Assembly: GCF_008153345.1 (NCBI RefSeq)
Contig: NZ_CP042818.1
Span: 868,001-932,000, forward strand
DNA length: 64,000 bases
Reading direction: 5' to 3'
DNA from: Treponema phagedenis
Lineage (GTDB): Bacteria > Spirochaetota > Spirochaetia > Treponematales > Treponemataceae
In this document: positions 11,772 to 13,816 of the stretch, piece after piece
Position numbering within the stretch: position 1 is the stretch's first letter
Layout: every line of letters starts with the position of its first letter
Translations under genes and position numbers: made by a program
Notes under the pieces: generated by a model
Database searches by the model: none
What the model saw: the letters and a program-made list of their open reading frames with translations, nothing else
What the model was told of the DNA's origin: nothing

Positions 11772-12806
11772 ATGAGCATGAAAGATGGAGCAGTTGCGAA
11801 CACATGGAGAACGGAAAGCGCTGCAGAAAGCATAAAATTACGTTTACCCGAAGCGGTTTCCCCCGCTTTTATACGTTTGATCGAAGAAGCGGAAGAAGCT
11901 GATGCAAAAGCTCTGCGCCGGCAAGTTTTTGCCGCTGAAACGGAAAAAATTTCGCTTCCCTATGAATCCGCCGATCCGCTCGGAGAAAGTAGATATTGTG
12001 TTACTCCCTTCTTGGTTCATCAATATACAAATCGGGTTCTTATGCTTACATCGGGGCGCTGTCTTTCATATTGTAGATATTGTTTTCGACGCGGGTTTAC
12101 CGCTCGCCGGCAAGGTTGGATCCCTGATACCGAGATAGAAAAAATAACGGATTATCTTAAACAGAATCCCGATATCAAGGAAATACTGGTTTCAGGCGGG
12201 GATCCTATGAGCGGCACTCTTGGGCAACTTGAGGCTTTGTTAAAAAGATTACGGCAAACATCGCCCGAATTACTTATACGGCTTTGTACTCGGGCACCAA
12301 TCTTTGCTCCAGAGCTTTTTACGGAAGAACTCTTGCAATTACTAAAATCAATGAAACCTCTTTGGATTATCCCTCACATAAACCATCCGGCAGAGCTTGG
12401 TTTTGAGCAAAAAAAAGCGATTGACTCGTGTATAAATGCGGGGCTTCCTATGCAATCGCAGTCAGTGCTTTTGCGTGGCGTCAATAATTCTGTAGAAACT
12501 CTTTGTGCACTTTTTCATACACTTGTCTGTATGGGAGTAAAACCGGGCTATTTGTTCCAAATGGATCTTGCTCCCGGCACGGCGGAATTCCGCGTCCCAC
12601 TTTCACAAGCTCTGGGCCTCTGGAGAGAATTGAGAAAAAAGCTTTCAGGACTTTCATTACCGCAGTTTGCGGTTGATTTGCCCGGTGGCGGGGGAAAGTT
12701 TCCTCTTTCAATTCTTGCACTTTATGACACCATAGTAAAAAAAGACGATGCAGATTCCTTTTCTGCACTTGGACTTGACGGAAAAGTATACACATATCCT
12801 GTCTGA
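11772..12806 (+). CDS. KamA-family radical SAM protein (lysine 2,3-aminomutase-like)
   Basis: Radical SAM/PLP enzyme of 344 residues. Cysteines 97, 101 and 104 (CLSYCRYC) bind the 4Fe-4S cluster, SGGDPM at about 141-146 contacts SAM, and Lys309 in DLPGGGGKFP is the expected PLP lysine. Length is close to EpmB, which beta-lysylates the EF-P pathway substrate, and shorter than catabolic lysine 2,3-aminomutase (about 415 residues), so an EF-P modification role is favoured but unproven. No epmA or efp is present here. The ribosome site is weak; ATG at 11772 or 11778 could start translation. Confidence 0.88.
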   Translation: MSMKDGAVANTWRTESAAESIKLRLPEAVSPAFIRLIEEAEEADAKALRRQVFAAETEKISLPYESADPLGESRYCVTPFLVHQYTNRVLMLTSGRCLSYCRYCFRRGFTARRQGWIPDTEIEKITDYLKQNPDIKEILVSGGDPMSGTLGQLEALLKRLRQTSPELLIRLCTRAPIFAPELFTEELLQLLKSMKPLWIIPHINHPAELGFEQKKAIDSCINAGLPMQSQSVLLRGVNNSVETLCALFHTLVCMGVKPGYLFQMDLAPGTAEFRVPLSQALGLWRELRKKLSGLSLPQFAVDLPGGGGKFPLSILALYDTIVKKDDADSFSALGLDGKVYTYPV

Positions 12807-12864
12807 ATGTATAAAAAATCATACGGGAGGCTCTTGTATTTTTCTTAGGCTGAAATCTCTAATG

Positions 12865-12901
12865 CTATATATGCATATAGTGTTATTTATCTGAAAATAA
12901 C
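12865..12901 (+). promoter_or_regulatory. Two inverted repeats upstream of the sigma-54 promoter (candidate activator sites)
   Basis: TATATGCATATA (12868-12879) is a perfect 12-bp palindrome, and GTTATTT (12882-12888) pairs with AAATAAC (12895-12901). They lie about 55-90 bp before the GG of the sigma-54 element, a usual distance for an enhancer-binding activator. Activator identity is unknown. Confidence 0.4.
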
Positions 12902-12952
12902 AGAAAAAGGACACTAATCAACTTTTCTAAAGAAATATTTTTTCTCTTTTTT

Positions 12953-12968
12953 TGGCATGATCATTGCT
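12953..12968 (+). promoter_or_regulatory. Sigma-54 (RpoN) type promoter before the alternative sigma gene
   Basis: The string TGGCATGATCATTGCT has GG (12954-12955) and GC (12966-12967) separated by exactly 10 bp, and differs by one base from the fixed positions of the -24/-12 consensus TGGCACG-N4-TTGCW. Transcription would begin near 12979, at the GTGAGGAG ribosome site of the gene starting at 12992. Confidence 0.65.
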
Positions 12969-12991
12969 TAATAATAAGTGAGGAGTTTGCA

Positions 12992-13816
12992 ATGGGTGAA
13001 AATATATTCTCGCAGTATTTAAAAGATATTAAACGATATCCGCTTTTAACTGCTCAGGAAGAATTATGTCTTGCTGATAAGATTCAAAACGGAGATCGAG
13101 GCGCACTTCAACAACTTATCAATTCTAATCTGCGCTTAGTAGTAAAAATGGCAAAAGATCGGACACCCTCCGAAAATCTTTTAATGGATTTAATACAAGA
13201 AGGAAACATGGGGTTAATGATCGCCGCTGAAAAATTTTCTTCATCGTTTAATGCCCGTTTTTCTTCGTATGCGTGCTGGTGGATACGGCAATCATTAAAT
13301 CGATATCTTAACGGTAAACATGAAACAATTCGCTTACCGTTTCGAAAAGCCGATCTTCTGCGTAAAATAGAAAAGACAATAGATCTTTTTAAGGAAAAAT
13401 ATAGACGCACTCCCTCTTATGAAGAGATAGCTGAAATCATTCAGGTTCCTCTGAAGTCAGTGATACAGATGTGCGTGTTTACTGAAAAACCGATAAGTTT
13501 TGATAGCCCCTTGCAGATTCATTTTTCGGCAAATTTATATGATTTAACCGAAAATAATGACTATAATCCTGAAAAAGAATATTTTAGAAAAGTACAAATA
13601 GAAGCTTTCAGAAAATTCTTGCAAAATACATTAAAATCTCGCGAGAAAGACATTATTGAAGAAAGACTTCCTATTACAGATAAAAATCCTAAGTCCTTAC
13701 GCTCTTTAGGTATAAAATACGGTATTTCCGCAGAGTCGGTACGTCAAACCGAAATTCGAGCACTGAAAAAACTGCGCATGCATGAGAAATATCTAAAATC
13801 TGAATTTTTTTACTAA
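12992..13816 (+). CDS. Sigma-70 family alternative sigma factor (RpoS/RpoH-like)
   Basis: RNA polymerase sigma factor of 274 residues. Region 1.2 is QYLKDIKRYPLLTAQEE, region 2 holds LIQEGNMGLMIAAEKF and the promoter-melting segment SSYACWWIRQSLNRYL, region 3 is RTPSYEEIAEI, and region 4 ends in YGISAESVRQTEIRALKKLR. It is far shorter than housekeeping RpoD and lacks region 1.1, so it is an alternative factor. Strong ribosome site GTGAGGAG. A sigma-54 promoter precedes it, the arrangement known for rpoS in Borrelia burgdorferi. Its regulon cannot be seen. Confidence 0.9.
   Translation: MGENIFSQYLKDIKRYPLLTAQEELCLADKIQNGDRGALQQLINSNLRLVVKMAKDRTPSENLLMDLIQEGNMGLMIAAEKFSSSFNARFSSYACWWIRQSLNRYLNGKHETIRLPFRKADLLRKIEKTIDLFKEKYRRTPSYEEIAEIIQVPLKSVIQMCVFTEKPISFDSPLQIHFSANLYDLTENNDYNPEKEYFRKVQIEAFRKFLQNTLKSREKDIIEERLPITDKNPKSLRSLGIKYGISAESVRQTEIRALKKLRMHEKYLKSEFFY

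Follow-up and report, generated by a model that had tools for sequence, protein, structure and literature searches.

A sigma-54 promoter motif precedes the gene for an alternative sigma factor in Treponema phagedenis, and we consider it very likely (a probability of roughly 0.87) that the gene is transcribed from this RpoN promoter, as one branch of a fork in which Rrp2 and RpoN serve two sigma factors. The window, i.e. the whole stretch of 64,000 nt that was analysed, corresponds to G000:C1:868001-932000 in a genome of 3,372,116 bases. A cascade from RpoN to a sigma factor, as in Borrelia, had been proposed in the first-pass annotation of this DNA, and that proposal is supported by the conservation of the site in 77 of 82 orthologous genes, by the position of the sigma factor in the clade of Borrelia RpoS, and by the presence in the same genome of RpoN and of an activator of the Rrp2 clade.

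The candidate promoter, the sigma gene and their conservation

The candidate promoter TGGCATGATCATTGCT (Table 1) is characterized by T12953, G12954 and G12955, followed by ten bases and by G12966 and C12967, an exact GG-N10-GC arrangement that also meets the TGGCAY...TTGCW form of the -24/-12 element (matrix score 18.6), and 25 nt separate its C from the sigma gene ATG at 12992. Both the bases and this gap agree with the initial description of an RpoN promoter with exact spacing at the right distance from a sigma gene. The pattern TGGCAYNNNNNTTGCW occurs exactly only once in the window, at this site, whereas one-mismatch matches (5 vs 5.15 expected) are at the level of chance, and a looser motif would therefore carry no meaning. 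Judged on the window alone, the motif is suggestive, i.e. an indication only. Of the window's 53 open reading frames with a length of 150 aa or more, only the sigma gene has a strong upstream site, the runner-up scoring 11.9.

Table 1. Features at and around the sigma gene, in window coordinates
Feature	Position	Strand	Basis
KamA-family radical SAM protein (lysine 2,3-aminomutase-like)	11772-12806	+	upstream syntenic neighbour of clade A sigma in other Treponemataceae
Two AT-rich inverted repeats	12865-12902 (12865-12880, 6-bp arms; 12881-12902, 8-bp arms)	.	sequence
Candidate sigma-54 (-24/-12) promoter TGGCATGATCATTGCT	12953-12968	+	sequence; upstream conservation in clade A
Predicted transcription start, ±2 nt	12979	+	sigma-54 promoter geometry (-12 spacing)
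Shine-Dalgarno-like AGGAG	12981-12985	+	sequence
Alternative sigma-70-family factor, clade A, 274 aa	12992-13816	+	Pfam, NCBIfam, tree

The encoded protein matches the Pfam models of sigma-70 regions 1.2, 2, 3 and 4, all four above cut-off, lacks the extended N-terminus of RpoD and stands apart from RpoD in the tree; it is a non-primary, group-2-type factor of the sigma-70 family. The best NCBIfam model is proteobacterial RpoS (TIGR02394), at 194.7 bits about half the curated cut-off of 378.7, and the RpoH model (TIGR02392) gives 140.3 bits against a cut-off of 323.1, so that the curated models, with scores far under both cut-offs, do not class the protein as either RpoS or RpoH. The earlier wording 'RpoS/RpoH-like' is therefore loose, although the sigma factor assignment and its 274 residues hold and the protein does fall in the Borrelia RpoS clade.

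For comparison across the Spirochaetota, sigma genes were gathered solely on the basis of protein similarity, the promoter playing no part in the choice, and the 350 nt upstream of each were scored with a fixed -24/-12 matrix taken from the well-known consensus, a score of at least 14 being counted as strong; genome-wide scans for sites were made by pattern and not by weight matrix. The sigma tree contains three groups, namely RpoD, a clade A with the window gene, Borrelia RpoS and others (bootstrap 100, SH-aLRT 98 in a mixture-model tree of 60 rows), and a clade B with the second sigma factor of T. phagedenis, the TDE0937 type and the sigma factor of a T. pallidum-like genome (G004) from the same genus as T. 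phagedenis. As the window gene and Borrelia rpoS share one clade, the resemblance is one of homology and not merely analogy, and, with RpoN and an Rrp2-clade activator also encoded in the genome, the Borrelia parallel is deeper than was first proposed.

Strong sites were found upstream of 77/82 clade A genes and 46/80 clade B genes, whereas the reverse strand of these stretches gave 1/82 and 0/80, respectively; shuffled upstream stretches yield a strong site in 0.2-0.3% of cases. The clade A sites are present both within the class Spirochaetia (59/63) and outside it (18/19), whereas those of clade B are concentrated in the class (39/40 vs 7/40 outside), with none in three Brachyspira-like genomes. 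Nearly all clade A genes thus have the predicted RpoN promoter, which in clade B is a trait of the class. Five clade A genes are without a strong site, one of them (L209) without any site. Borrelia-like rpoS genes (L216-L220), which served as a positive control, score 16.9-18.9 with sites at 59-64 nt. Conservation of the GG and GC among relatives had been put forward as a check on the motif, and such clade-wide retention turns what would be a lone motif into strong evidence. Gene order points the same way as far as orthology within the family is concerned, since at least 12 treponeme loci, that of T. denticola among them, have a KamA-family gene ahead of the sigma gene.

Transcript supply, RpoN and the probable activator

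The KamA-family gene and the sigma gene lie on the same strand, separated by 185 nt. The inverted repeats in this interval had been described as placed like activator sites; arms of equal length appear in 34 of 500 dinucleotide shuffles, and the repeats are thus not clearly above chance, so that a role as activator sites is not supported. No conserved activator site was found. In Borrelia, the upstream activator site of rpoS is reported to be dispensable in culture, and longer rpoS transcripts are also known. A dual supply, in which a conditional RpoN transcript is joined by a basal one from a housekeeping promoter or from upstream read-through, would have room in the intergenic stretch and a possible source in the KamA-family gene, but is in our estimation doubtful, as no sigma-70-type hexamer pair is present on the + strand between 12700 and 13100.

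The T. phagedenis genome encodes RpoN with its DNA-binding region and an RpoN box of the sequence ARRTVNKYR. RpoN was found in 146 of the 149 spirochaete genomes sampled, and the three negative genomes are too few to act as controls. In one Borrelia-like genome (G110:C1:472200-474100, L337) the rpoN reading contains several stops, by decay or sequencing error, and rpoS there keeps a perfect -24/-12 site despite the broken reading, an observation that weighs neither way.

Three true sigma-54 activators are encoded in T. phagedenis. L125 (G000:C1:2255850) is a REC-AAA-HTH8 protein with an intact GAFTGA motif, L126 is a GAF-AAA-HTH8 protein in which GAFTGA is replaced by GAFTDA, and L127 (G000:C1:149377) is a protein of 375 aa without a DNA-binding HTH; short activators of the latter kind (about 380-410 aa) are also present in several other treponemes. 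Borrelia Rrp2 and L125 fall into one clade (SH-aLRT 98), to which REC-type activators from treponemes, the T. pallidum-like genomes included, also belong; in one genome (G061) a gene of this clade lies directly upstream of a sigma gene. On account of this clade membership and adjacency, the Rrp2 orthologue L125 is most likely the activator of the window promoter; its T. denticola counterpart is TDE1969. The earlier remark on treponeme rpoN and NtrC-type activators named AtcR of T. denticola as its example, but this regulator has a LytTR domain and is not of the NtrC type (PMC12070737). No LytTR protein was found in the T. phagedenis genome, and AtcR was accordingly rejected as the activator of this promoter.

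That the RpoN-dependent promoter is opened by L126 or by the HTH-less L127 instead of the Rrp2 orthologue appears unlikely. Both proteins are intact in T. phagedenis and both kinds occur in several treponemes, but Borrelia-like genomes carry only the Rrp2-type activator and Borrelia uses Rrp2 for rpoS; the gene adjacency in G061 and the GAFTDA of L126 also argue against it. The least credible alternative is a chance motif upstream of a gene transcribed by the housekeeping sigma factor from an ordinary promoter, which would fit the AT-rich leader around the site and the chance frequency of one-mismatch matches, but which we regard as highly improbable in view of the recurrence of the site at a similar distance in the clade A orthologues and its near absence from the reverse strand, the lack of a + strand hexamer pair at 12700-13100, and the focus of clade A upstream conservation on TGGCA and TTGC (columns partly selected by the scan) and not on a -10 element.

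Under the favoured reading, transcription from the RpoN promoter, sigma-54 holoenzyme would sit closed at the site until an ATP-using activator, most likely L125, opened the complex; the sigma gene would then be transcribed by sigma-54 polymerase, and its product would in turn direct polymerase to second-tier genes. The same RpoN step would feed the second sigma gene next to groES as well as hsp20, so that the circuit would fork to two sigma factors and a chaperone.

Other candidate targets and the altered sites of the T. denticola genus

Exact -24/-12 matches number 13 in the T. phagedenis genome, compared with 3 for the reversed pattern, and TTGGCAYRNNNNTTGCW gives 10 vs 0 in this genome and 81 vs 9 over 13 treponemes. 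The second sigma gene (clade B), divergent from groES, has an exact site 74 nt before it, and the hsp20 gene has one at 88 nt. Relatives show the pattern ahead of sigma genes and of hsp20, as well as ahead of dps, glnA and nifH, these three genes being identified from their sequences by eye. Three of the exact T. phagedenis matches were rejected as promoters because they are part of a repeated palindromic element, and further exact matches inside genes were not counted as promoters. The element, TTGGCACGAAAGTTGCA...GCAACTTTCGTG, mimics a -24/-12 site at L116, L117 and L118 (G000:C1:697114, 699085 and 703348); similar elements occur in G001, G002, G021, G190 and G152, and it is probably a mobile or structural repeat. 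At L112 (G000:C1:231501), a consensus-like site runs straight into a (CT)n tract, which could vary in length.

Two WYL-domain HTH regulators of T. phagedenis (L121, L123) have exact sites upstream, at less certain distances, and a related WYL-type HTH regulator in G084 (L389) has a sigma-54-like site, so that such genes are seen in two treponeme genera. A conserved, poorly annotated protein (L285:1692-2603 and L314, a 325-aa ORF) also stands behind sigma-54-like sites in treponemes. It resembles the sigma-70/ECF superfamily only weakly (E 1e-5, under the cut-off) and carries a C-terminal HTH, two of its members are 22% identical, and it is possibly a third, divergent sigma factor or a regulator under RpoN.

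The T. denticola genus was represented by G021, G084, G190, G152 and G194 (RpoN, L324-L328; sites in L307-L321 and L382-L392). The second sigma gene of G190 contains, exactly, both RT-PCR primers published for TDE0937 (PMC2965109), and a LytTR protein lies at 40 kb in this genome, the position expected for AtcR. The second sigma factor of T. phagedenis has TDE0937 as its orthologue, and the window gene very probably has TDE0070, given the same order with a KamA-family gene and a matching chromosomal position. Array data show induction of TDE0937 by heat (2.8-fold), oxygen (21.8-fold) and osmotic downshift (14.0-fold), and of the Hsp20 gene TDE1029, counterpart of the T. phagedenis hsp20 gene, by 9.5-, 8.5- and 6.7-fold, respectively, whereas TDE0070 is induced by neither heat nor oxygen and is down 1.8-fold in osmotic downshift (PMC2965109). 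It follows that the two RpoN-type sigma factors probably answer different signals or activators. RpoN would be a concrete controller for TDE0937, a strongly stress-induced sigma factor that has been proposed as a stress regulator of T. denticola.

The RpoN box, through which RpoN contacts the -24 element (PMC2680985), reads AVRTVNKYR in this genus, with Val for Arg, whereas the other genomes examined have ARRTV or SRRTV. The clade A sites of the genus have the form TAGCAY-N5-TTGCT in the cases read, as do 4/5 of those of clade B, and the dps and peroxiredoxin sites also take the TAG form in some of its genomes. In agreement with this trend, TTAGCAYRNNNNTTGCW (TTAGCAY type) occurs 15 times in the five genomes (control 1) and 0 times in three other treponemes. 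The loss of the Arg together with the TAG sites is the pattern expected if RpoN binds these sites; as the covariation represents a single evolutionary event, it is to be read as correlation only. A strict switch of RpoN specificity is weakened by the TGG that is kept at hsp20 in 5/5 genomes, at the second sigma gene of G152 and at the peroxiredoxin gene of G190, and such mixing of TAG and TGG among orthologous promoters makes relaxation at the first G of the -24 element a better description than a clean switch. The TAG form explains how such sites could escape consensus searches in T. denticola, and the genus provides a natural test of the contact between the RpoN box and -24.

Relation to known RpoN systems

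In Lyme Borrelia the RpoN-to-RpoS relay holds a central place, and it is usually treated as a Borrelia matter. Its occurrence at orthologous genes across the class implies that it predates Borrelia, and the two-step RpoN-sigma switch appears to be an old control circuit common to spirochaetes; RpoN control of the clade B sigma factor in the T. pallidum-like genome is predicted. The mechanism itself is already known from Borrelia, whereas the depth and breadth of the relay, the fork to two sigma factors and Hsp20, and the covariation of RpoN box and -24 seem to be new; no earlier statement of relay, fork or covariation for treponemes was found in the open-access papers that were searched. A wider reading, which we hold to be evenly balanced, is that RpoN in the Spirochaetia serves specifically as a switch for second-tier regulators, in which an ancestral step would lead to two parallel sigma factors and, in treponemes, also to Hsp20, Dps, peroxiredoxin, WYL regulators and the third, divergent sigma-like protein; Borrelia would keep a reduced remnant, and loss of the RpoN-box Arg in the T. 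denticola genus would have relaxed the -24 contact, with TAG for TGG as a natural change of specificity that would keep the regulon out of sight of consensus searches.

B. burgdorferi RpoN binds the -24/-12 element of rpoS, and a G-24T change sharply reduces both binding and expression (PMC3037356). The Rrp2-RpoN-RpoS system of Borrelia and that of T. phagedenis are alike in the clade of the sigma factor, in the -24/-12 site before its gene, in RpoN and in the Rrp2-clade activator. They differ in the distance from promoter to start codon, 25 nt in T. phagedenis vs about 60 nt in Borrelia, and in treponemes the same type of promoter also stands before a second, paralogous sigma gene and before hsp20. 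TDE0937 and TDE0070 of T. denticola, although orthologous to the T. phagedenis genes as set out above, differ from them in their TAG sites and in the Val of the RpoN box. In E. coli, rpoH and ibpB are under sigma-54 control, so that, as in treponemes, an RpoN promoter stands before a sigma gene and an Hsp20 gene, but in an unrelated lineage and as a minor promoter among several. Leptospira, with EbpA and EbpB acting with RpoN, is alike in being a spirochaete in which RpoN works with GAF-type and REC-type activators; L. interrogans is without RpoS and RpoH, and RpoN there serves amtB and lipoproteins (PMC12655853).
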